Source: a virus. From it: a DNA stretch of 26,692 nucleotides. The position numbers and the translations under genes were made by a program. Where the stretch lies: positions 1 to 26,692 of the IMG/VR virus record IMGVR_UViG_3300031974_004443; one strand, written 5' to 3'. A model generated the notes under the pieces. That model had not been told where the DNA came from and did no database searches. It saw nothing but the letters and a program-made list of their open reading frames with translations. Position 1 is the stretch's first letter. Each line of letters begins with the position of its first letter. Below are positions 1 to 19,851 of this stretch, in pieces.

Positions 1-110
1 CCATTATCTATAATATGAATATCTGATATTAAATCATACTCAAGATATTTTGGTAACATCTTCTGTAAGTTAGGTGATTTATAAAGTGTTGGTATTACTA
101 ATTCTATCAT
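1..110 (-). CDS. Glycosyltransferase-like protein, N-terminal part only
   Basis: Only the first 36 residues lie in the window, and the gene runs off the left edge. The protein opens with MIELVIPTLYK and reaches IIDNG at the edge. A beta strand ending in a P-T pair, followed about 25 residues later by a strand ending in D-N, is the usual opening of GT-A fold (family 2-like) glycosyltransferases, where the second acidic strand helps bind the nucleotide sugar. Its ATG overlaps the stop of the upstream gene as ATGA, so it is the last visible gene of a leftward operon with bS21 and is probably translationally coupled. The acceptor cannot be known; phage surface glycans or host envelope are possibilities. 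The fold call rests on a short stretch. Confidence 0.5.
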   Translation of the reverse strand, partial: MIELVIPTLYKSPNLQKMLPKYLEYDLISDIHIIDN

Positions 111-442
111 AATGAATAATTTTTTCTTCCTCTTATTCTATATTCTCTTCTCTGAAGTTCATAATCAGGTATAATATCCCAAACAAATTCTTGAAAATGA
201 GAATTAGGAGTAAACATTAGGTCTGCTATTTCTTTAATATATTCTTTGTATAATGAATGATAATTTTCCATATAATCTTCTACATCAGCTTTATTAATTC
301 TACCCTTTTTAGCATACTCCCAAATTTCTGAAGGATACTTAGATTTTATCTTATCTTTTTCTTCTTTATACTTTTTATAATTTTCGTTTGTTTCTAAACC
401 TTTTTCTTCCAATATTATTAATTTACTTCTTGTTAATGGCAT
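107..442 (-). CDS. Hypothetical protein, 111 aa
   Basis: I do not recognise this protein. It is charged, rich in Lys, Glu and Tyr, mostly helical by composition in the first 75 residues, and ends in a basic RRREYRIRGRKN-like tail. There is no signal peptide or membrane segment, so it is probably cytoplasmic. Its start lies inside the last 20 bases of the bS21 gene in another frame, and its stop overlaps the next gene as ATGA. It is therefore wedged in a tight four-gene leftward operon. A purine-rich AGAGGGA lies about 13 bases before the ATG, too far for a typical SD. The next Met is about 57 residues in, so this start is the most likely. The basic tail and the bS21 neighbour make an RNA- or ribosome-related role conceivable, but this is only inference. 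Confidence 0.6.
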   Translation of the reverse strand: MPLTRSKLIILEEKGLETNENYKKYKEEKDKIKSKYPSEIWEYAKKGRINKADVEDYMENYHSLYKEYIKEIADLMFTPNSHFQEFVWDIIPDYELQRREYRIRGRKNYSL

Positions 443-701
443 TATTTCTTTTCCCTCTTTTTTTAGAATATAGTTTTATTTTAGTATCACCATCTTCTAT
501 CTTCTGTAATTTAGTTGCTAACTCTTGTTCTCTTTTAGCTTTCATCATAGATTTTCTTTTTATAACTGAAGGTTTTAAAAATTCTTTTCTATTCTTTAAT
601 TCTATAAGATGTTCTGATGCTCTTACTTTTCTTTTGAATCTTGAAAGTAATTTTTGAAATGTTTCACCTTTTCTTTTTTTTACTGATACTATTGATGCCA
701 T
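423..701 (-). CDS. rpsU: Phage-encoded 30S ribosomal protein bS21
   Basis: This 92-aa protein matches ribosomal protein bS21 over residues 1-60: a short beta start, GETFQKLLSRFKRKV (12-26), then EFLKPSVIKRK (40-50) and a basic helix. The RFKR and KPSVxKR blocks are bS21 hallmarks, and the second is typical of Bacteroidetes. A charged extension follows (residues 61-92), longer than the roughly 64 aa of host proteins. In Bacteroidetes, bS21 with bS18 and bS6 is known to cover the anti-SD tail of 16S rRNA. By my alignment from memory, the host Tyr54 corresponds to Arg57 here. The gene has no SD (upstream sequence TAAAGATAT), although flavobacterial rpsU is known for a strong, autoregulatory one. 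It starts 6 bases after a 50-aa gene, and a TATATAAA box lies 13 bases before the ATG. Phage bS21 genes are known from Bacteroidetes phages, also on the strand opposite the late genes. Confidence 0.88.
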   Translation of the reverse strand: MASIVSVKKRKGETFQKLLSRFKRKVRASEHLIELKNRKEFLKPSVIKRKSMMKAKREQELATKLQKIEDGDTKIKLYSKKRGKRNNAINKK

Positions 702-707
702 ATATCT

Positions 708-860
708 TTATTTATTTATATATTTTTTCTTAAGTTGGTTATAGCTAACAGTTAACATTGGTACTCTTTTTCTACTCTGTGATGCTAATTTCCAATATAA
801 TGCTTTTGGTGTATTTTTCACCCAAGTTTGCATATCAATAGTTTTTAAGTATGTCCACAT
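708..860 (-). CDS. Small basic protein, 50 aa
   Basis: This short gene starts MWTYLKTIDMQTWVK and ends QLKKKYINK. It has 9 Lys, 3 Trp and no acidic stretch, so it is strongly basic with several aromatics, a composition fitting a nucleic-acid or ribosome contact, though I recognise no family. No SD is visible (ATAAATTATT before the ATG). It is the first gene of the leftward operon and lies 6 bases before bS21, next to the GC-rich repeats at 884-990. The clean start, the tight spacing and codon use like its neighbours make it a probable real gene despite its size. An alternative is a leader peptide that sets bS21 expression. Confidence 0.55.
   Translation of the reverse strand: MWTYLKTIDMQTWVKNTPKALYWKLASQSRKRVPMLTVSYNQLKKKYINK
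715..722 (-). promoter_or_regulatory. TATATAAA box upstream of bS21
   Basis: On the minus strand TATATAAA lies 13 bases before the bS21 start, inside the last codons of the 50-aa gene. Similar boxes precede other gene blocks here (1127, 3786, 7952, 13971). It resembles T4-type late promoters (TATAAATA), but AT-rich DNA makes chance matches common. Confidence 0.25.
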
Positions 861-1241: not shown

Positions 1242-1312
1242 CTACTATATTATATATAATTATATATTGTGGTTATCTATACCAATCTTTTTTTCAAAAT
1301 ATAATTTATTAT

Positions 1313-3237: not shown

Positions 3238-3762
3238 ATGTATTACATTTATCACATATCCAATGTTAAAATTGGATGTACAACAAATCCAAAAAGAAGA
3301 GTAAAAGAACAAGGATATACAGAATGGGAAATTCTTGAAACCCATGAATGTATAGATACTGCATCTAAACGAGAACAAGAACTACAAAAACAATATGGAT
3401 ATGCCGTTGATATTGCTCCTTATTCTACTTCTGTAAGAAATAGACCGAAGTGGAATGATAAAACGAGATATAAGGTTTGGTTAGATGAGGAAGCAAGAAA
3501 AAAAACTCTTAGACATCCTAATTTCATTAAGGGTTCAAAAGAATGGCATAAAAAAGATAATTACAAAACTTGTATTAAAAATATAAAAGGTGCAAAAAAA
3601 CCAAACTTATTAACAAAAGAACAAGAAGAATTTATTAAAAAAACATATTTTAAACAATTAAATCAACATACTATAATTCCAAGCGGAAAATATAATTCTA
3701 AACAACTTGCAGAAATGTTTAATGTAAGACAAGGTTTAATTGTTAAATATTATAAGAAATAA
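3238..3762 (+). CDS. GIY-YIG family homing endonuclease
   Basis: This 174-aa free-standing endonuclease probably cuts related phage genomes lacking it and spreads by repair. The N-terminus carries the GIY-YIG pattern: YYIYHI (2-7), VKIGCTTNPKRR (10-21) with the conserved Arg, and a likely metal-binding Glu46 in KREQEL. The middle is basic. The C-terminus (about 125-174) has a helix-turn-helix-like stretch with KQLAEMFNVRQGLIVKYY, as in other homing enzymes. The gene sits between two virion genes, with a 71-base gap before it and 38 bases after it. It has its own host-type promoter and is richer in AAA/AAG Lys codons than its neighbours, all signs of an inserted selfish gene. Confidence 0.85.
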   Translation: MYYIYHISNVKIGCTTNPKRRVKEQGYTEWEILETHECIDTASKREQELQKQYGYAVDIAPYSTSVRNRPKWNDKTRYKVWLDEEARKKTLRHPNFIKGSKEWHKKDNYKTCIKNIKGAKKPNLLTKEQEEFIKKTYFKQLNQHTIIPSGKYNSKQLAEMFNVRQGLIVKYYKK

Positions 3763-3785
3763 AATTTAACCACCTGGTATATTCA

Positions 3786-3793
3786 TATATAAT
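3786..3793 (+). promoter_or_regulatory. TATATAAT box ahead of the protease gene
   Basis: TATATAAT ends 7 bases before the ATG at 3801, in a 38-base gap. The same octamer lies at 7952-7959, 10 bases before another gene start. If it acts as a late promoter, the transcript would be nearly leaderless. It may be a chance AT-rich word. Confidence 0.25.
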
Positions 3794-3800
3794 TAAGTGT

Positions 3801-5688: not shown

Positions 5689-5693
5689 AGGAG
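5689..5693 (+). promoter_or_regulatory. Shine-Dalgarno of the scaffold gene
   Basis: AGGAG lies 6 bases before the ATG at 5700. This is good spacing and a clear SD in a genome where most starts have none. Confidence 0.75.
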
Positions 5694-5699
5694 TTAATT

Positions 5700-6413
5700 A
5701 TGAACAAGGAAGAACTAAGAGAATTAGTTAAAAAACATTTCAACTTAACTGATGCAGTATCAGAAAATACTGAAGAAGTAGTTAAAGAAGAAATGTCAGA
5801 TGTTGCTTCAGAACAAATCTTTGGTGAAATTTCAACAGCTGATGGAGAACTTACTCTAACTTACGAAGGAGAAGAACTATCTATCGGTTTACCTATCTTT
5901 GTGAAAACAGAAGATGGTAATGTTCCAGCACCGGATGGTGAACACGCTTTGGAAGGAGGTGTATTTATCAAAACCGAAGGTGGAGCAATCGTGGAAATTT
6001 CCGAAGGTGAACTTGAAGCAGAAGAGGAAGAAGAAGTAGTAGCTGAAGAACATGAAGAAAAATTATCTGAAGAAACTACTGAAACTGAATCTGAAGAATC
6101 TGTTGAAGAAAACTTCGAAGAACATGAGGATGAAGTTGTACTTGAAGAAAAAGAAGAAATCGTAGAAGCAATTGCTGAAATCGTTATCCCAATTATTGAG
6201 GAAATGAAGAAAGATATTGAAGAAATGAAATCTAAATTTTCTGAAACCGAATCTAAAGTTCAAGAATTTGCTTTAGCACCTGCAGTGGAAAGAACCAAGG
6301 CAGAAATTAAAAACCGTAATCATTCTAAAATTGATACTTCTTACAATCCTATCAATGATGATAAGAAAAGACAATTTGAGAGATTACTTAAAATTAGAAA
6401 CAAAAACAAATAG
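5700..6413 (+). CDS. Head scaffolding protein
   Basis: This 237-aa acidic protein lies between the prohead protease and the major capsid protein, the standard place for the scaffold. Residues 40-105 form a small beta module with PAPDGEHALEGG, akin to the C-terminal LPDGTYEL module of the protease next door. This suggests a shared binding surface or a protease-recognition unit. Residues about 105-155 are an extreme Glu-rich run, followed by a coiled-coil helix (about 155-195) and a basic C-terminal tail (KKRQFERLLKIRNKNK). Acidic coiled coils with a basic C-terminal capsid-binding helix are typical of scaffolds. It has a clear SD and ends in TAG only 11 bases before the capsid start. Confidence 0.75.
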   Translation: MNKEELRELVKKHFNLTDAVSENTEEVVKEEMSDVASEQIFGEISTADGELTLTYEGEELSIGLPIFVKTEDGNVPAPDGEHALEGGVFIKTEGGAIVEISEGELEAEEEEEVVAEEHEEKLSEETTETESEESVEENFEEHEDEVVLEEKEEIVEAIAEIVIPIIEEMKKDIEEMKSKFSETESKVQEFALAPAVERTKAEIKNRNHSKIDTSYNPINDDKKRQFERLLKIRNKNK

Positions 6414-6416
6414 GAG
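6412..6416 (+). promoter_or_regulatory. Shine-Dalgarno of the capsid gene
   Basis: AGGAG overlaps the TAG stop of the scaffold gene and lies 8 bases before the ATG at 6425. Overlap of SD and upstream stop may couple the two genes. Confidence 0.75.
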
Positions 6417-6424
6417 AATTAATC

Positions 6425-7339
6425 ATGGCAGGATTTAATGTATCTGCATTAGCAGATTTTAACAATGAGTTGGCTGGAGAATTCTTAGTAAAATCAGTAA
6501 TCGCTGGTTCAACTGCAGAATATGTAACAGTCAAAGAGGGGATTAAATATAAAGAACCTCTAAACCTACAAGAAGTAGACCTTGTAGTACAAGATGGGTT
6601 TGGTTGTGTTACAACTGAATCTGGTTCAGCGATATACACTCAAAGAGATTTGGAAGTATGTCAAAGAAGTTCACACGATGGATTATGTTTAAGAGATTTA
6701 GACAAGAAGTACATCGGTTTATTAGGACCTGAAGGTTCTTACCCAGAAACTTACGCTTTTGCTGAAGAATATGCATCTCAATTAGTTGCAAACTTCCAAA
6801 AGAAAAATGACCAATTTATCTGGACAGCATCAACTGGTTCAGGAGATTGTATTTCTGGTCTTAACACAATTTTAACAAGTGGTTCAGCTGCAACTTATGT
6901 AAGTTCATCAGCTCCTACATCTGATAACATCTTAGATATTATCGATGAGCAGTTAGAGAACTTAGCAGTAGATGTACAAGATAGAGATGACTTGACAGTA
7001 TTTATGTCAGTTGCTAACTTTAGAAAGTATATCGTTGGTTTAAGAAAAGCTAACAACTACTTCTATGACCCTAACACAGTAGAAAACAGAGGTTCATTAC
7101 TTTCAGCAATACACCCATTCGCTAACCTTAGAGTTGTAGGTACTGTTGGATTACAAGGTACAAATAGAATTGTCACTGGTCCAGCTAGACACATCGTAAT
7201 CGGTACTGACTTAGTATCAGATTTAGATAACTTCCAATTATGGTATGATATCAACGATGATAAGTTAAAGCATAGAATTGTAACTAAATTAGGTGTTCAA
7301 GTTGCTTATCCAGAGTTCTGGGTAACTAACAACCTGTAA
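6425..7339 (+). CDS. Major capsid protein (HK97-like fold)
   Basis: This 304-aa protein should form the icosahedral shell. It lies directly after protease and scaffold and resembles Bacteroidetes phage capsid proteins: an N-terminal helix (FNNELAGEFLVKSV), an IYTQRDLEVCQRSSHDGLCLRDL stretch with three Cys (about 71-92), a long helix before FIWTASTGSGD (about 120-143) and a C-terminal strand region ending GVQVAYPEFWV. The spread of Cys residues could allow disulfides or be chance. No delta-domain or long N-terminal arm for scaffold is fused to it, consistent with the separate scaffold. It has a strong SD and a regular, expression-friendly codon choice. The fold call is from family likeness, not structure. 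Confidence 0.85.
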   Translation: MAGFNVSALADFNNELAGEFLVKSVIAGSTAEYVTVKEGIKYKEPLNLQEVDLVVQDGFGCVTTESGSAIYTQRDLEVCQRSSHDGLCLRDLDKKYIGLLGPEGSYPETYAFAEEYASQLVANFQKKNDQFIWTASTGSGDCISGLNTILTSGSAATYVSSSAPTSDNILDIIDEQLENLAVDVQDRDDLTVFMSVANFRKYIVGLRKANNYFYDPNTVENRGSLLSAIHPFANLRVVGTVGLQGTNRIVTGPARHIVIGTDLVSDLDNFQLWYDINDDKLKHRIVTKLGVQVAYPEFWVTNNL

Positions 7340-7350
7340 TCATTAACTAA

Positions 7351-7356
7351 AGGAGG
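7351..7356 (+). promoter_or_regulatory. Consensus Shine-Dalgarno of the tail tube gene
   Basis: AGGAGG lies 7 bases before the ATG at 7364. It is the fullest SD in the window and a full match to the bacterial consensus. Confidence 0.85.
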
Positions 7357-7363
7357 ATAAATT

Positions 7364-7900
7364 ATGGCATGTGATATTACAAGTGGATTTGCTCTCGGAT
7401 GTAGAGATAATCTTGGCGGAATCAAAGCATTATACATCCTCTCTGGCTCTGTAGCTGGAATTACTGAAACTTCAAATGAGATTTCAGATATTTCTGGTAG
7501 TGGAGTATTTTATCAGTTTGATTTACAAAGAGGAACATCCGATTTCACAGAAACAATCAATGGTTCAACTGAAAATCAAACAGTCTTTTATGAGGCTACG
7601 GTAAATGCCGCGTTCGCTAAGATGCAAACTTCTACAAGAAACCAAATTAAGATTTTAGCTCAAAATCCAGATTTAAAGTTAGTTGTTGAAACAAACAACG
7701 ATACTTCTGGTGAGAAATTCTTCTATGTTGGTAGAGTGTACGGAGCTGCATTAAACGCAGGACAAGGTCAGTCAGGAACTGCTTTAGGTGATGCTAACGG
7801 ATATACCTTAACATTCACTGCTCAAGAGCCATCACCAGCTGATGTAATCACTGGTACAACTCTTAGTAGTGCTTTAACAGGAATAACTGTTTCACAATAA
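7364..7900 (+). CDS. Major tail tube protein
   Basis: This 178-aa beta-rich protein follows the capsid gene and begins MACDITSGFALGCRDNLGG, a Cys-bearing opening I associate with tube proteins of Bacteroidetes phages. The later blocks FYQFDLQRGTSDFTET, ENQTVFYEATVN and NGYTLTFTAQE fit the same family, and the Gly-Lys-Ala-Leu-Tyr start of the first strand is typical. It would polymerise into the tail tube around the tape measure protein. The strongest SD in the window and the strong terminator just after it point to high, separately ended expression, as expected for a protein needed in hundreds of copies. A head decoration protein is a less likely alternative. Confidence 0.7.
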   Translation: MACDITSGFALGCRDNLGGIKALYILSGSVAGITETSNEISDISGSGVFYQFDLQRGTSDFTETINGSTENQTVFYEATVNAAFAKMQTSTRNQIKILAQNPDLKLVVETNNDTSGEKFFYVGRVYGAALNAGQGQSGTALGDANGYTLTFTAQEPSPADVITGTTLSSALTGITVSQ

Positions 7901-8454: not shown

Positions 8455-9681
8455 ATGGAAAAGAAATTAAACAAACATAAATTAACCATCATTCCAAAAT
8501 ATGGTGAATACTATTATCCTACATCTAAAGTATTTGAAGATGATAAGGGAAAAGTAGTTTATTATGGTGAAGGAAATGAGTTTCCACAATATGTGATTGA
8601 ATTATTTAATAAATCATCAATCAATGGAACTGCAATCATCGCTAAAAGAGATGGAATTATTGGAGATGGTTTAACAACAGAAGATGAATCAATATTAGAA
8701 TATGCAAACAAAGAAGGAGAATCATGGAATGATATCTTCAAGAAAGTTGCTTTAGATAGAGCATTATTTGGTGGGTTTGCATTAGAAGTAATCTGGTCAA
8801 ACGATAGAACAAAGATTGCAGAAGTATATCATGTTGATTTCTCGTATCTAAGAGCACATAAGATGAATGAACGAGGAATTATACCTGGTTACTATATTTC
8901 ATCAGAATTTCAAAACAGAGGTAGGTTAAGAGTTAATCCAGATGATTTAACTTATGTTCCAAGATTTAATAAATTGGATAGAACCTCACCTTCACAAATT
9001 ATATATGTAGGAGATTACAGACCAGGTATGAGATATTATCCCTTACCCGATTATCATGCTGGTTTAAATATTATTGCATTAGATGCAGAGATAGATAATT
9101 TCCACAAAAACAATATTAAAAATGGATTAGCTCCATCTTTATCAATTACTACATTTACAAATGCAGATAATGAAGAAAGAGGAATAATCGAACAACAATT
9201 AAGAGATGCTTATGCAGGAAGTGATAATGCTGGTTCTCTTATTTATATGGATGTTGCAAACAAAGAAGAAGCACCGGTTATCACACCAATACCTCAGAAT
9301 GGAGCAGATGGGTATTATACTACTGTTAATGATATGGTTGTACAAAAGATACTTACTGCACATAGAATCACTTCTCCAATGATTTTAGGTATTAAAACAG
9401 AAGGTCAATTAGGTGGTAGAACTGAGATGTTAGAAGCTTATGCACATTTCCAAAAAACAGTAATCGAACCAATGCAATCTGACATATTGTCAGTATTTGA
9501 AGATATATTTAAAGTAAATGGATTAGATGTTACTTTAGGTGTAGAAACTACAAGAATATTTGAAGATGGTGAAGAAACAGAAGTAGTAACTTCAATCGAT
9601 GCAGAAAGTGGTGAAGATAATGAATTAGAAGAAAACATTGTAAATGTACAAGAAGAACCTAAAAACGAAGGAGTAATATAA
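8455..9681 (+). CDS. Portal protein
   Basis: This 408-aa protein should form the 12-fold ring at the DNA-entry vertex. Family signs include the opening VFEDDKGKVVYYGEGNEFPQYV, a helical wing with NGTAIIAKRDGIIGDGL (about 57-74), the central WNDIFKKVALDRALFGGFAL (about 91-110), and the conserved helix block with AHRITSPMILGI and GRTEMLEAYAHFQKTVIEP (about 302-340). The portal opening motif of Bacteroidetes phages is present. The C-terminal 45 residues are acidic and probably disordered. AAGGG 5 bases before the ATG is a partial SD. Its TAA overlaps the next ATG as TAATG, so portal and connector are probably coupled. The order is unusual in that the portal follows the capsid and tube genes. Confidence 0.88.
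   Translation: MEKKLNKHKLTIIPKYGEYYYPTSKVFEDDKGKVVYYGEGNEFPQYVIELFNKSSINGTAIIAKRDGIIGDGLTTEDESILEYANKEGESWNDIFKKVALDRALFGGFALEVIWSNDRTKIAEVYHVDFSYLRAHKMNERGIIPGYYISSEFQNRGRLRVNPDDLTYVPRFNKLDRTSPSQIIYVGDYRPGMRYYPLPDYHAGLNIIALDAEIDNFHKNNIKNGLAPSLSITTFTNADNEERGIIEQQLRDAYAGSDNAGSLIYMDVANKEEAPVITPIPQNGADGYYTTVNDMVVQKILTAHRITSPMILGIKTEGQLGGRTEMLEAYAHFQKTVIEPMQSDILSVFEDIFKVNGLDVTLGVETTRIFEDGEETEVVTSIDAESGEDNELEENIVNVQEEPKNEGVI
9668..9673 (+). promoter_or_regulatory. Shine-Dalgarno of the connector gene
   Basis: AAGGAG inside the last portal codons lies 7 bases before the ATG at 9681. It supports coupled re-initiation at TAATG. Confidence 0.75.
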
Positions 9682-10262
9682 TGGAAAATACCCTATTAAT
9701 TTCAGAAGCTAAGTTAAAAGCTTTTACAGATATAAACAATAACCTTGATGTGGATTTAATCAAATCTACAATCAGAGAGGCACAGATTGTTCATATCACT
9801 CGTCTTTTAGGTACAAAATTATACGATAAGATTTTATCAGATGTAGATAGTAATTCATTAAGTGGTAATTATAAAACACTTGTTGATGATTATGTGCAAG
9901 ATGCACTTATATACTGGTCTTACTATGAATCATTAGAATCAATTTATTTAAGACCAAGAAATAATGGTTTATTACAACCACAAGGAGGTGAGAACTCACT
10001 TTCTGTGGATATGTTGATTTATGATAAGAAAAGACAATCTGTTAAAAATAAAGCAGAATACTTTTCAGAAAGATTGGTAGATTATTTATGTTTTAATAAT
10101 GATTTATTCCCTGAGTATGGAACAGAAACAAACGATGATATTTATCCAGATGCAGGAATACAATTTAAATCTCCAATCGTATTTAGAAAAACAATTAGAG
10201 ATAATATTGAACAAATGGGTATAAAAGTTGTAAATTCACGATACAAGTATTTACCACAATAA
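9681..10262 (+). CDS. Head-tail connector-like protein
   Basis: This 193-aa, mostly helical protein sits right after the portal gene and overlaps it as TAATG. Its pattern (LISEAKLKAFTDINNNLDVDL, then IREAQIVHITRLLGTKLYDKIL, then a long YVQDALIYWSYYESL helix) matches a family common beside portals in Bacteroidetes phages. I regard it as the adaptor that docks under the portal ring, similar in role to HK97 gp6. The C-terminal 35 residues contain a possible extended arm. A strong SD implies good expression, although only about 12 copies per virion would be needed. The exact ring position (adaptor or stopper) is inference. Confidence 0.7.
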   Translation: MENTLLISEAKLKAFTDINNNLDVDLIKSTIREAQIVHITRLLGTKLYDKILSDVDSNSLSGNYKTLVDDYVQDALIYWSYYESLESIYLRPRNNGLLQPQGGENSLSVDMLIYDKKRQSVKNKAEYFSERLVDYLCFNNDLFPEYGTETNDDIYPDAGIQFKSPIVFRKTIRDNIEQMGIKVVNSRYKYLPQ

Positions 10263-10267
10263 GAGGA
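10262..10267 (+). promoter_or_regulatory. Probable Shine-Dalgarno of the fibre gene
   Basis: AGAGGA lies about 10 bases before the ATG at 10278. The complementarity is moderate and the spacing rather long. It overlaps the connector stop codon. Confidence 0.5.
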
Positions 10268-10277
10268 TTAAAATAAT

Positions 10278-12638
10278 ATGGCAAATTATAATTTAACAAA
10301 CCAACCAATATCAGCATCATTTCAACAATTGTTGCAAAAGAATGATTCTGATTATTTAGTAGATGGAACTGGTTCTTTAATAGAAAGTTTAAAAGTAACT
10401 GGCTCAATATCAGCATCCACTTATTATGGAGATGGTAGTAACTTAACAAATATCACAGCAAGTGCAGTAGATACAGGTTCTTTACTTATAACAGCATCAA
10501 GTGATTTTAGTGAAATTACATTTACAAAAGGTAATGGAGATACATTCTTAGTAGATAGTACACCAAGACAAGTTGTAGAACTTGTTAAAAACAAAAATGG
10601 TTTCATGGCCAAAGGTACACCTGTATATGTGAGTGGTTCAACAGGTAATGAACTTCATGTATATGCAGCATCAGCATCAAGAGCTGATAGGATGCCAGCT
10701 ACCTTTGTACTTGAACAAGATTTAAACTTTGATGAATCAGGTACAGCTATATTAAGTGGATTTATCAATGGTGTTGATACTTCTGCATTTGGTGAAGGAG
10801 ATAATGTATATGTAGGAGTAGATGGTGGATATACAAATGTAAAACCAACAGGTTCAGCAAACTTTATTCAAAAATTAGGTAATGTAGTTAAATCTGATGT
10901 AAATGGTAGTGGAGTTATTAGTGGAGCTGGTAGAAGTAATGATTTACCTAATATCCAAGAAGGATATACATGGGTAGGAGATTCTAATGGAGTACCACAA
11001 GCAGTAACAACAGGTTCTTTATTAATAGATACTGGTTCATTTGCTAAACTAATTGGTAATAATGAATTTAATGGAAACAACAACTTCTCAGGTAGTTTCT
11101 TTGCATCAGGTTCAGCAACATTATTTAATCCTGTACCAGGTGCATTTAATTTAGAACAAACTTTAGGATACGCTTCACATACCAAAGATAATAAACCAGA
11201 TACTTATTCAACTAACTTTATCGGTATGATGAATTACTCTGGTGTTGGTAACAGATACGATAAAGCTCTTACAATGTTCCAATATGATTCTCCATCATTT
11301 AATTATGGTGGTATTCAGTTCAATGCTGGTTATGAGATTGGTAACTTCTTACAAACAGTATCAGGTTCAATAGGTACAAATAGAATAGAAACTAAACCTG
11401 ATGGTAATACTTTACTAAGACAGTATGCACAAGAAATAAACATTGGTACAGCAAACACCGATGCTATTACCATTGGTAATGCTGGTTCAACTACTGCTGT
11501 TAATATTGGAGCAGCAACTCAAGTATCAGTTGGAGGAGGTTCATTTGTAATGAATGCACCAGTAACTGCATCTTCAAATTTAAAAGTAGATGGAAACTTT
11601 ACTTCTTCACTTCAAGAAGGATATGTATGGGTTGGAGATAGTTCAGGTACAACAACATTAGTTACTACATCATCTTTAGCAAGTGGTGGATTACCTTCTG
11701 GTGTAGTTAGTGGTTCTGACCAGTTAACAGGTTCATATGATTTAAGATATGCACAACTTGATGGAGTTAACTTCTTTAGTGGACCAAACAACATATTCAC
11801 AGGTAGTGTATTAGTATCTGGCTCAGGTCAGTTCATAAACCCTATACCAGGTGCATTTAGTTTCGATAGAGCAATTGATTATGGAACTGTACCTAAAGGT
11901 AATGTACCTTATTCGTATGGGTTAGGATTTACGGGTATGTTAAACTATGGAGGTGCAGGTAACCAATTTGATAATTCTAATGTAATGTTACAAGCTGATT
12001 CATCCGCATTCAATTACTATGGTATGAATTTTTGTGCTGGTTATCAAGTTGGTACTATTATGAAAACCATCTCTGGTTCATTTGCATCAAATAGAGTAGA
12101 AACAAATGCAGATGGTACTACAAGATTTTATGCATATGCTACAGAAATGGAAATTGGTACTGCACTCACCAATAATATTACTATTGGTAATGCAGGTTCA
12201 ACTCAAAATATTACAATTGGTTCTGCAACTCAAACTCTTTTAGGTGGTGGTTCAGTAGTATTAAATGCACCAACAACATTTAATGGTAGTAATATCATTA
12301 GTGGTTCTGTTAAAACAGAAGTTGCTACTACATCAATTACATCTAATACAGCATCGATTGATTTCTCAAATACTTCATTATTTGAATTAACACTTGCAGA
12401 TGGTGTAGATACACATATAGATGCAACGAATGTAGGAACAGGTCAAACAGTTAATGTATTGATTAACCAATCAGGAACATCAGCTGGAACAGTATCATTC
12501 TCACCTAAATTTTATTTCCCAAGTGGTAGTACTTATGTAGCAACTACAACAACAGCAGCACAAGATATAATAACATTGATTACATTTAATAACGAAAATA
12601 ATATCTATGTTTCATCGGTAAATAATATGGTTCAATAA
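10278..12638 (+). CDS. Large tail fibre or appendage protein with internal duplication
   Basis: This 786-aa protein is rich in Gly, Ser, Thr and Asn. The N-terminus has the STYYGDGSNLTNI motif seen in many marine phage fibres. Two copies of a roughly 218-residue unit follow (about 225-440 and 443-660). Each runs from QEGYxWVGDS through NPxPGAF, a GM(M/L)NY(S/G)G block and ITIGNAGST repeats to a GGGSxVxNAP end. The ITIGNAGST stretches resemble trimeric beta-helix or adhesin repeats. The C-terminus (about 675-786) is a beta domain with ADGVDTHIDATN and TGQTVNVLIN, common at the ends of marine phage structural proteins. It probably forms a trimeric external fibre on head or tail. It precedes a second putative adhesin by 1 base. 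Receptor binding is inferred. Confidence 0.7.
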   Translation: MANYNLTNQPISASFQQLLQKNDSDYLVDGTGSLIESLKVTGSISASTYYGDGSNLTNITASAVDTGSLLITASSDFSEITFTKGNGDTFLVDSTPRQVVELVKNKNGFMAKGTPVYVSGSTGNELHVYAASASRADRMPATFVLEQDLNFDESGTAILSGFINGVDTSAFGEGDNVYVGVDGGYTNVKPTGSANFIQKLGNVVKSDVNGSGVISGAGRSNDLPNIQEGYTWVGDSNGVPQAVTTGSLLIDTGSFAKLIGNNEFNGNNNFSGSFFASGSATLFNPVPGAFNLEQTLGYASHTKDNKPDTYSTNFIGMMNYSGVGNRYDKALTMFQYDSPSFNYGGIQFNAGYEIGNFLQTVSGSIGTNRIETKPDGNTLLRQYAQEINIGTANTDAITIGNAGSTTAVNIGAATQVSVGGGSFVMNAPVTASSNLKVDGNFTSSLQEGYVWVGDSSGTTTLVTTSSLASGGLPSGVVSGSDQLTGSYDLRYAQLDGVNFFSGPNNIFTGSVLVSGSGQFINPIPGAFSFDRAIDYGTVPKGNVPYSYGLGFTGMLNYGGAGNQFDNSNVMLQADSSAFNYYGMNFCAGYQVGTIMKTISGSFASNRVETNADGTTRFYAYATEMEIGTALTNNITIGNAGSTQNITIGSATQTLLGGGSVVLNAPTTFNGSNIISGSVKTEVATTSITSNTASIDFSNTSLFELTLADGVDTHIDATNVGTGQTVNVLINQSGTSAGTVSFSPKFYFPSGSTYVATTTTAAQDIITLITFNNENNIYVSSVNNMVQ

Positions 12639-14699: not shown

Positions 14700-15344
14700 A
14701 TGAAAACAAAACAAATAGCAAACTTTGAGAATTATGAGATATCAGATACAGGTATAGTAATATCTAATAAACAATCAAAACCAAAAATATTAAAACCACG
14801 AGAAGTATCACAAAGTAAAAAGAAATACTTACAAGTTAGTTTATATAATGAATTTTGTAAAATAGGTAAACATGGTTGGAAACTACCAAAACAATTATAT
14901 GTTCATAGATTAGTATGGGAAACATTTGTTGGTGAAATACCTGAAGGATATGAAATAGACCATATAGATAATAATCCACATAATAATAATCTATCTAATT
15001 TACAATTGTTGAGTAGAACTGAAAATGTTAATAAACATTATACAAGAGCTGATGTAAGATATCTTAGAGAACATAGAGATGAAATAATAAAAGATTATAT
15101 TGAATTACAAAGTTATTCTAAATTAGCTGAAAAGTGGGAATGTACAGCTGCATCTATATGGAGAATTGTGAATAATGTAATTCATAGATATTCTAAATCA
15201 AAGAAACAATATATAAACTATTCTTTTAATGAAGAAGATAATGATTTGTTTGCAACAACAGATTTAAGAAACAAAACAAAAGAACAATTAATTGAATTAT
15301 GGGAAAAAAACTATGGTGTAAAATACAACTTGGAACTTGGTTAG
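14700..15344 (+). CDS. HNH homing endonuclease with NUMOD4-like domain
   Basis: This 214-aa protein has an N-terminal NUMOD4-like DNA-binding part (NFENYEISDTGIVIS, residues 8-22), then an HNH nuclease core: the YVHRLVWETFVG strand-helix, DH at 87-88 with the catalytic His88, and NNPHNNNLSNL (91-101). A helix-turn-helix region follows (about 120-165, including KLAEKWECTAASIWRIV) and a charged C-terminus. It is probably a mobile endonuclease nested between the membrane-protein gene and a Cys-rich gene. AAAGG lies 8 bases before the ATG. Its last 46 bases overlap the next gene in another frame, so insertion seems to have trimmed or reused the neighbour's start. Confidence 0.88.
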   Translation: MKTKQIANFENYEISDTGIVISNKQSKPKILKPREVSQSKKKYLQVSLYNEFCKIGKHGWKLPKQLYVHRLVWETFVGEIPEGYEIDHIDNNPHNNNLSNLQLLSRTENVNKHYTRADVRYLREHRDEIIKDYIELQSYSKLAEKWECTAASIWRIVNNVIHRYSKSKKQYINYSFNEEDNDLFATTDLRNKTKEQLIELWEKNYGVKYNLELG

Positions 15345-17909: not shown

Positions 17910-18644
17910 ATGAGTTTTATATATTCAAAAGAAAGATTTGGTAACATTGAAAGATTTTCACAAATAGCAAAAGATGCTGATTCTCTTTATCAGTATATGT
18001 ACCAAGATGATGAGATAGTACAATTAATGCAATTATTAGATAAAGAATTACCTAAAGATTCTAATTTCATTGAAATAGGAAGTGCTCTTGGTGGTTCTTT
18101 TCATTGTTTTGGAAGTGTATTACCAAATGGTAGAAAGATAAGTGTAGATGTTACAATAGATGATTCTAAGATGCCTTATCCTTCTTTTGTAACTCTTGAT
18201 GGGTACATAGAAAAAAGATGGGAGAATTGGAATAAAAACTTTACTGATGTGCATTCTATTTTAGGAGATTCTCTTTCTCAAGAAACTATCGATAAGGTAA
18301 AGAATATTTTAGAAGATAAAAAAGTAAATTTTATTTTGATTGATGGTGACCATTCACACGAATACATTAAATGGGATACTTTAAAATATTTACAATTTGT
18401 TAATGATGATGGTATCCTTGCTTATCATGATATATTTGGACAGTATCGTGGATTTTGGGCTGAGTTAATTTCATTTTATCCTAACGAATGTATTGAAATA
18501 AAATCTCAATTTACAGGTGATGAAGATAATAGACATTACGAAACGGATAGATTTGGAGAAAAAGTAAAAGGTCCTGGTATAGGTGTGTTAAAATTAAATA
18601 AAGAGATAAAAGAAGATTTATTAAAAAAATATAATGCTTTATAA
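17910..18644 (+). CDS. Class I SAM-dependent methyltransferase, small molecule or sugar type
   Basis: This 244-aa Rossmann-fold enzyme has motif I FIEIGSALGGS (53-63) for SAM, then ISVDV at the end of strand 2, FILIDGDHSHEYIKWD (about 141-156) and GILAYHDIFG (about 170-179). The IDGDHSHE and HDI blocks with metal-binding Asp/His are typical of the family containing cephalosporin-hydroxylase-like CmcI and macrocin-type O-methyltransferases. The substrate is unknown; a sugar or nucleotide, perhaps related to the glycosyltransferase-like gene at the left edge, is plausible. It lies between the DNA methyltransferase and large terminase and overlaps the latter by 11 bases, so it is co-expressed with packaging genes. 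Confidence 0.75.
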   Translation: MSFIYSKERFGNIERFSQIAKDADSLYQYMYQDDEIVQLMQLLDKELPKDSNFIEIGSALGGSFHCFGSVLPNGRKISVDVTIDDSKMPYPSFVTLDGYIEKRWENWNKNFTDVHSILGDSLSQETIDKVKNILEDKKVNFILIDGDHSHEYIKWDTLKYLQFVNDDGILAYHDIFGQYRGFWAELISFYPNECIEIKSQFTGDEDNRHYETDRFGEKVKGPGIGVLKLNKEIKEDLLKKYNAL

Positions 18645-19851
18645 AGGATTTAAACCCTACGAGTTTCAAAAGAAGATAATAGATGATATACTCACTAAAG
18701 AGGATATGTTCTATACTTTAGTTTGTGGTAGGCAGATTGGTAAAACGCTTTTACTAATTAATATGTTATTATATTACGGAATAAATAAACCCAAGAGTAT
18801 TCTTTTATGGGTATCACCTTATTATTCAATGGCTATCAAAGTTCTTTCACAAATAATAGATGCAATTGAAAAAACACCAATAACAAAAGAAGCTAATAAA
18901 TCAGAAAAGATTATTACACTTATAAATGGTACTCGTATATATTTTCGTTCTGCAGAGAAACCAGAAACCATTAGAGGTTTATCAGTAGATTATGCATTCT
19001 TAGATGAAGCACAAGATATATCAGATGATGCATTTAACAAAGCAATACTTCCTACCTTAACAGCCAAAGGTAAGAAGTGTTTAGTAGCAGGAACACCAAA
19101 AACTAAAAATTGGTTTTACTCATATTTCCAAAGAGGTGAAGAGGAGGGGTATAATTCTTATTCTGCTCCTTCTTCTATCTCACCTTATGTTAGTAAAGAA
19201 TTTTTAGAAGAACAAAAACAATCCCTTCCACCTGCAATATACGAACAAGAGTTTGAAGCATTATGGCAAGAAGGTGATGGTGAAGTATTCTCTAATATAG
19301 ATAATGTATCTGTGTTATCGGAATGGATATCTACGAAAGGAAGAACCGTTGGTGGTTTAGATATTGGAACAAAAGAAGATTACTCTGTTCTTACTATAAT
19401 GGATGATGCAGGTAGAGTTATATGGGTATGGAGAGAACGAGGATTAGAATATTCACAAATAGTTTCTAAAGTTGTTTACTTTTGTAAACAATACAATACA
19501 CAATTATTAATAGAAGCTAATTCAATGGGAGATGTGGTATATGAGATGATTAGAAAACAATATAAGAATGTTAAACCATTTATAACCACAAATACCTCAA
19601 AAGAAAATATAATTAGAAGATTGATTAGTGATATAGCAGATGGGAACTTAGAATTACCCTCTCCTAACCTTTTTAACCCACTTTACAGAGAGTTACAGAT
19701 GTTTCAGTACAAATACCTCCCAAGTGGAAAGATATCGTATCAGGCCATGGCTGGTGCTCATGATGATTGTGTGATGAGTTTAGCTATTTGTAATTGGAAT
19801 AGAGTAGATAACCCAATAAGAAAGAAATTAGTTATAAGTGGAATTAGGTAG
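18634..19851 (+). CDS. terL: Terminase large subunit (ATPase and nuclease)
   Basis: This 405-aa packaging motor drives DNA into the prohead and cuts it. The N-terminal ATPase has Walker A in VCGRQIGKT (30-38) with Lys37 and Walker B in YAFLDEAQ (120-127) with Asp124 and catalytic Glu125. The AGTPKT coupling motif follows (about 151-156). The C-terminal RNase H-like nuclease has three acidic candidates: Asp243 (GLDIGT), Glu294 (LIEANS) and Asp378 (AHDDC). All key residues are present, so the enzyme looks intact. The ATG lies 11 bases inside the upstream gene. There is no SD. The terminator-free 37-base gap afterwards leads to the tail chaperone gene. Confidence 0.95.
   Translation: MLYKGFKPYEFQKKIIDDILTKEDMFYTLVCGRQIGKTLLLINMLLYYGINKPKSILLWVSPYYSMAIKVLSQIIDAIEKTPITKEANKSEKIITLINGTRIYFRSAEKPETIRGLSVDYAFLDEAQDISDDAFNKAILPTLTAKGKKCLVAGTPKTKNWFYSYFQRGEEEGYNSYSAPSSISPYVSKEFLEEQKQSLPPAIYEQEFEALWQEGDGEVFSNIDNVSVLSEWISTKGRTVGGLDIGTKEDYSVLTIMDDAGRVIWVWRERGLEYSQIVSKVVYFCKQYNTQLLIEANSMGDVVYEMIRKQYKNVKPFITTNTSKENIIRRLISDIADGNLELPSPNLFNPLYRELQMFQYKYLPSGKISYQAMAGAHDDCVMSLAICNWNRVDNPIRKKLVISGIR

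Follow-up and report, generated by a model that had tools for sequence, protein, structure and literature searches.

In the Flavobacterium johnsoniae ribosome, Tyr54 of bS21 stacks on A1534 of the 16S rRNA (PMC9976891). The Y54A substitution raises translation of SD reporters about 1.7- to 3-fold in vivo and 3-fold in vitro (PMC9976891), which bears out an earlier, sequence-only reading of the DNA described here that had named Tyr54 as a key contact. A survey of 61 Bacteroidetes phage bS21 proteins found an aromatic residue at the Tyr54 position in all of them (Chen et al. 2022, PMC9723584), and virus-encoded bS21 can enter ribosomes (PMC6375957). Phage bS21 genes and their placement next to the structural genes have been published, as have the comparison at Tyr54 and the idea of ribosomes that favour the phage (PMC9723584, PMC6375957, PMC9976891), and the sequence-only reading was right that such genes were already on record (PMC9723584, PMC6375957). 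As a reason for phages to have bS21, the published proposals say that it may favour phage mRNAs, with the mark on those mRNAs left unnamed.

The window is the whole stretch of DNA analysed, a 26,692-base virus record from a marine-type tailed phage. Its plus strand carries a head/tail module with a weak tape-measure match, an XkdF-type protease, a putative capsid protein, a portal protein, a DUF6712 protein and a terminase. The bS21 gene (423..701, minus strand, 92 aa) adjoins the tape measure-like gene and lies on the strand opposite to the protease, capsid and portal. Ribosomal_S21 (PF01165) matches residues 7-59 (profile 2-54 of 55) at 31.6 bits, above the Pfam cut-off of 27, and a second Pfam scan of the ORF gave 32.5 bits; the full bS21 core claimed earlier is present. 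In phmmer, residues 9-65 align without gaps to residues 6-62 of F. johnsoniae bS21 (7jil chain z), which places Arg57 (codon AGA, 531..533, minus strand) in the column of Tyr54. A 22-sequence alignment of phage and host bS21 gives the same pairing, as had the alignment of the sequence-only reading. The block around Arg57 is ungapped and the flanking K43, R49 and A55 are invariant, which rules out a chance or misaligned arginine. A sequencing error or private mutation is also ruled out, because independent contigs share the residue. Sequence comparison therefore confirms a true bS21 with Arg57 in the Tyr54 column. The aromatic residue at position 54, a trait of the Bacteroidia-type bS21 that hides the anti-SD, is absent from the phage protein.

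The predicted model of the protein (AlphaFold, mean pLDDT 84.7) has helices at residues 15-29, 31-37 and 44-69, with Arg57 inside the long third helix. Its top Foldseek matches are bS21 chains of solved ribosomes, with E values above 0.001. The basic C-terminal extension, from about residue 70 (426..494, minus strand), is conserved in relatives, with the consensus KIEDGDTxxxLxxKKRKK. The charged extension of 30 residues described earlier is real and conserved when counted from about residue 63, but only the last ~22 residues have low confidence in the model and are probably disordered. The bS21 dN/dS of about 0.13-0.4 among four relatives indicates purifying selection, so the gene is not a chance ORF. 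In vitro, E. coli ribosomes with a pelagiphage bS21 kept almost no activity (~5%; PMC6375957), and the protein described here could be a decayed or moonlighting copy that does not work in ribosomes. However, the purifying selection, the conserved core and synteny, and the reported entry of phage bS21 into ribosomes (PMC6375957) make this very improbable.

Two small genes flank bS21 on the minus strand. The upstream gene orfA (708..860, 50 aa) was found by an HMM scan of the loci and belongs to a MWxYL...LYWKLxxQxRxRIPML family. The downstream gene orfC (107..442, 111 aa, ~100 aa in relatives) overlaps the bS21 stop and adjoins bS21 in most relatives. The trio orfA-bS21-orfC is conserved on the reverse strand of the window, L206, L207, L208, L234, L241, L243 and L290. 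Neither orfA nor orfC has a Pfam or PHROG match; the orfC model is predicted to be all-helical and matches the structure of a single viral prediction (A0A516LX63, E 1.2e-4). The long intergenic region that separates the bS21 operon from the tape measure gene (861-1312) has a predicted fold much more stable than that of shuffled sequences (z -4.1). It contains a hairpin at 1165-1240 (TTGAGGAA..AGTTGCACAA / TTGTGCAACCTTCCTCAA) and CTGCAG/GCTGC repeats near 890-990, and it may act as a bidirectional terminator or a regulatory element. An Rfam scan of the window gave nothing above the gathering score. Homing-endonuclease-like genes occur inside the structural module at 3238-3762 (GIY-YIG/T5orf172) and 14700-15344 (HNH_3 with NUMOD4). 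ARAGORN calls a tRNA-Asn (anticodon att) at 11436-11505, within the large ORF 10278-12638, which is probably a false positive.

The phage group was defined with the large terminase (18634..19851, plus strand, profile match); a protease search gave 14 related loci and a terminase search gave 58. The arginine is present in the bS21 of every relative that reaches the site. The site reads KAKREQ in the window, LAVREQ in G003, NAIREQ in G004, QAIREQ in L234, DAIRLN in G005, DAKRQN in G006, DAIRTQ in G330/G333 and EAIRLN in G450. Arginine also occurs in a larger set of marine phage bS21 proteins whose tail, KIEDGxTxxxLxxKKRKK, is similar. In a sister group that shares the orfC neighbour of bS21 (L241, L243/L245, L246) the residue is histidine, and the known Bacteroidetes phage type (L002-L017 and others) has tyrosine. 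Since all 61 phage proteins of the survey are aromatic at this site, the arginine family falls outside the published pattern. The sequence-only reading had presented the residue change and its proposed effect as the new part; the arginine does lie outside that pattern, but the Tyr54 comparison itself had already been published (PMC9723584), with the opposite result. In a bS21 tree the phage Arg/His family forms its own clade (100/98) outside the Arg-type host bS21, although this is weak evidence since the tree was built on 69 columns and has long branches. Acquisition of the arginine from an Arg-type host bS21 was considered and is unsupported by this tree of few columns.

No SD precedes the bS21 gene. 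The sequence upstream of its start is ATATAAATAAATAAAGATAT, with an SD duplex energy of -0.1 kcal/mol, and none of 28 relatives has an SD on this gene. Flavobacterium rpsU has an SD in 69 of 80 genomes, with a mean energy of -19.6. The very strong rpsU SD seen in many Flavobacteriales is therefore absent from the window and its 28 relatives, as the earlier reading had claimed for the window.

Other genes of the phage do carry SDs, in an uneven distribution, and those on the capsid genes are strong and conserved; the conserved ones given here are on the plus strand. The putative major capsid gene (6425..7339, assigned by synteny and conservation) has AGGAG at 6412..6416, kept in 9/9 relatives, and the scaffold-like gene 5700-6413 has AGGAG at 5689..5693, also kept in 9/9. 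Gene 7364-7900 has AAGGAGG at 7350..7356 (6/6 close relatives; absent in the Nonlabens phage), the DUF6712 gene 9681-10262 has AAGGAG at 9668..9673 (8/10 close relatives) and gene 10278-12638 has GAGGA at 10263..10267 (6/8 relatives). SDs are scarce at the orthologous starts of the tape measure (1/6), protease (0/8) and terminase (1/24) genes. An SD precedes 8 of the 29 genes of the window, where 8% is expected from shuffles (binomial p = 0.0016). Conservation gene by gene across the phage group argues for a function of these SDs. The SD-less tape measure and protease starts have a conserved AT-rich motif (AAAATATAATTTATTATATG; TATATAATA) directly upstream of the ATG (window 1298-1312 and 3780-3800; also L207, L208, L234 and L253), which may be a late promoter whose transcripts would have very short leaders.

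Among phage contigs grouped by the bS21 residue, SDs precede 109/314 ORFs with arginine, 9/83 with histidine and 1/92 with tyrosine; in the related family alone the counts are 56/181 for arginine and 9/67 for histidine (Fisher p = 0.005), where ORF starts were called automatically and the contigs are related and not independent trials (G330 and G333 have identical bS21). The closest extension-bearing marine phages with arginine reach 47-79% SD. The huge freshwater phages L371 and L372 (contigs of 118 and 274 kb) have an Arg-type, tail-extended bS21 with SDs on only 0/24 and 3/20 ORFs, and in the His-type relative G449 an SD precedes one gene of the capsid region; therefore, the coupling of arginine to SDs is not strict. 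EMB2 has an SD at a possible portal start.

These observations fit a mechanism in which the phage-specific bS21 would enter host 30S subunits in place of the host bS21; they fit a phage of an SD-using host equally well. Tyrosine would then be replaced by arginine at the contact that bends the 16S rRNA 3' tail into the bS21/bS18/bS6 pocket, and the anti-SD would stay available. In a Tyr-type host, that is a member of the Bacteroidia, the arginine would be expected to loosen the stacking on A1534 and release the anti-SD, and late capsid genes with SDs would be initiated preferentially on ribosomes with the phage bS21. Since it has no SD, the phage gene would also lie outside the SD-based feedback of host rpsU. 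The earlier reading had proposed both the exposed anti-SD and the escape from feedback; it is supported in part, and the conserved capsid-gene SDs are support that it did not have. That the Arg-type bS21 frees the anti-SD for SD-bearing late capsid mRNAs in a Tyr-type host is our tentative explanation, held at a little short of an even chance. If the host is Arg-type, nothing is switched.

Genomes were sampled evenly across the phylum of Flavobacterium from the better-scoring half of matches, and a host SD was defined as AGGA, GGAG or GAGG between -20 and -5, counted over about 20 kb per genome. The Bacteroidota genomes examined fall into two classes at position 54, tyrosine or arginine. SDs precede 8/228 ORFs in 16 Tyr genomes and 74/291 in 20 Arg genomes, and the Mann-Whitney p of 1.9e-5 is only indicative because the split is largely phylogenetic, sampling was from the better half and ORF starts were automatic. 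Tyrosine thus marks the SD-less genomes and arginine is the ordinary state of SD users, which is expected from the role of Tyr54 (PMC9976891). This split supports that role even if the host of the phage is an SD user. Variation among hosts, which the earlier reading had named as evidence against itself, is present across the phylum and absent within the sampled Tyr-type (SD-less) genomes. Its phrase "Tyr-to-Arg change" is right in that arginine occupies the tyrosine column, but "change" assumes a Tyr-type host and is unproven since arginine is normal in SD-using Bacteroidota. Two MAG records labelled as Rhizobium sp. and Chitinophaga pinensis (L068, L077) have rpsU 89% identical to that of Flavobacterium and are probably mislabelled or contaminated bins.

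It is a real possibility, though somewhat less than an even one, that the host belongs to a non-Bacteroidia class of Bacteroidota or to another phylum, has arginine (or lysine) in its own bS21 and uses SDs. The phage arginine would then be host-like, its bS21 would support translation as already proposed, and the capsid SDs would reflect host use. All 20 sampled non-Tyr Bacteroidota genomes have arginine and are enriched in SDs, the bS21 of E. coli and B. subtilis is also without tyrosine at this position, and Borrelia bS21 has Lys53 (PMC10618245). The SD share of the window (8/29) resembles that of Arg-type hosts, and the marine Arg phages at 47-79% SD imply that the arginine family occurs in phages of SD users.

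The structural genes argue for a different host. The portal protein (8455..9681, plus strand) matches 52 isolate phages, and all 52 infect Bacteroidota. The best of these matches is Nonlabens phage P12024S (29%), where the protease domain, gene 7364 and the DUF6712 gene have counterparts too. Capsid homologues were found in 4/395 genomes of the class of Flavobacterium (best 32%, E 1.7e-41) and in 0/197 genomes of an Arg-type class. The four genomes have Tyr, Tyr, Tyr and His in their own bS21, and their prophage regions contain homologues of the protease, gene 7364, the portal and DUF6712, and no bS21. Portal and capsid homologues are therefore mainly in Bacteroidia phages and Tyr-type genomes, which stands against an SD-using host, as do the position of the phage bS21 outside the Arg-type host bS21 in the tree and the window GC of 31%, which is below most sampled Arg-type genomes although some are at 31-35%. 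One Arg-type genome, G076, contains a weak homologue of the portal whose start is preceded by an SD.

Searches of isolate phages gave zero matches for bS21 (tblastn), for the capsid protein and for a tail-region protein. The terminase has only remote matches, in many isolate phages, and two weak ones in 395 Bacteroidota genomes. When 19.7 kb of the window were compared with 397 Flavobacteriaceae, neither a prophage nor a credible CRISPR spacer emerged; the matches were all short and due to chance or a shared motif, for example DPPFMGSGST of the methylase. The portal and capsid homologues point to Bacteroidia and the SD usage points to an SD-reading ribosome. SD usage was dropped as a decisive host marker, since the Bacteroides phage crAss001 (L343) has SD-like sequences on 10/34 ORFs (29%) in the 49 kb tested, unlike the other Bacteroidia phages checked (SD share 0.02-0.10). 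The homologies suggest that the host is likely within the Bacteroidota and somewhat likely within the Bacteroidia.

Even in a Bacteroidia host the arginine may keep the contact. The chemistry of arginine allows it to stack on a base, and therefore the sequence does not tell whether anti-SD hiding is lost. Guanidinium stacking or a phosphate contact of Arg57 with the 16S tail would keep the anti-SD hidden, the effect of the phage bS21 would lie elsewhere, for example in the N-terminal part or the basic C-terminal tail, and the SDs would be decoration or remnants. The histidine in sister phages suggests a preserved contact, crAss001, with no known bS21, shows that SDs are possible in a Bacteroidia phage, and the phage-host differences in bS21 are mainly N-terminal (Chen et al., PMC9723584). 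However, this explanation is improbable given the gene-by-gene conservation of the SDs and the partial freeing of the anti-SD by Y54A itself (PMC9976891).

The release of the anti-SD by an Arg-type bS21 is supported by the conserved arginine, the conserved capsid SDs, the association of arginine with SDs in phages and hosts, and the Y54A effect. The portal and capsid homologues in Bacteroidia, the missing SDs at the homologous starts there and in Nonlabens P12024S, and the separate bS21 clade also support it. It is weakened by the exceptions (L371/L372, G449, crAss001 and EMB2), by arginine stacking, automatic starts and the relatedness of the phages, and because an SD-using host would account for arginine and SDs together. 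A stronger version, that the phage makes SD-blind Bacteroidia ribosomes SD-reading and marks its capsid mRNAs with SDs, resulting in a dedicated late-infection ribosome, is rather unlikely; under it, orfA and orfC may assist the bS21 exchange.

In the part of the literature covered, we found no report of a non-aromatic residue at position 54 in a Bacteroidota-phage bS21, or of SDs on the capsid genes of bS21-carrying Bacteroidota phages; at the homologous capsid-gene starts examined in Bacteroidia prophages and Nonlabens P12024S there are none. The phage group offers a candidate mark, the capsid-gene SDs, and a candidate switch, the arginine at the Tyr54 contact.

The freshwater Bacteroidetes phages of Chen et al. 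2022 resemble the window in that their bS21 gene, too, lies on the reverse strand and neighbours the genes for capsid, protease, portal and terminase. The window phage differs from their 61 aromatic proteins in its arginine, its capsid-gene SDs and its basic C-terminal extension, and from Tyr-type phage contigs, which have SDs on 1/92 ORFs. The Y54A mutant of F. johnsoniae (McNutt et al. 2023, PMC9976891) has the same residue altered in the same family, to alanine where the phage has arginine, and F. johnsoniae rpsU has a very strong autoregulatory SD where the phage gene has none. The bS21 of Pelagibacter phage HTVC008M (Mizuno et al. 2019, PMC6375957) is likewise virus-encoded and expected to replace the host copy, but it is derived from an alphaproteobacterial host in which anti-SD hiding is undescribed. 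The bS21 of Chlorobia and other non-Tyr Bacteroidota has arginine at the position like the phage, and the sampled Arg genomes use SDs; however, the phage family is its own clade with a different C-terminus.
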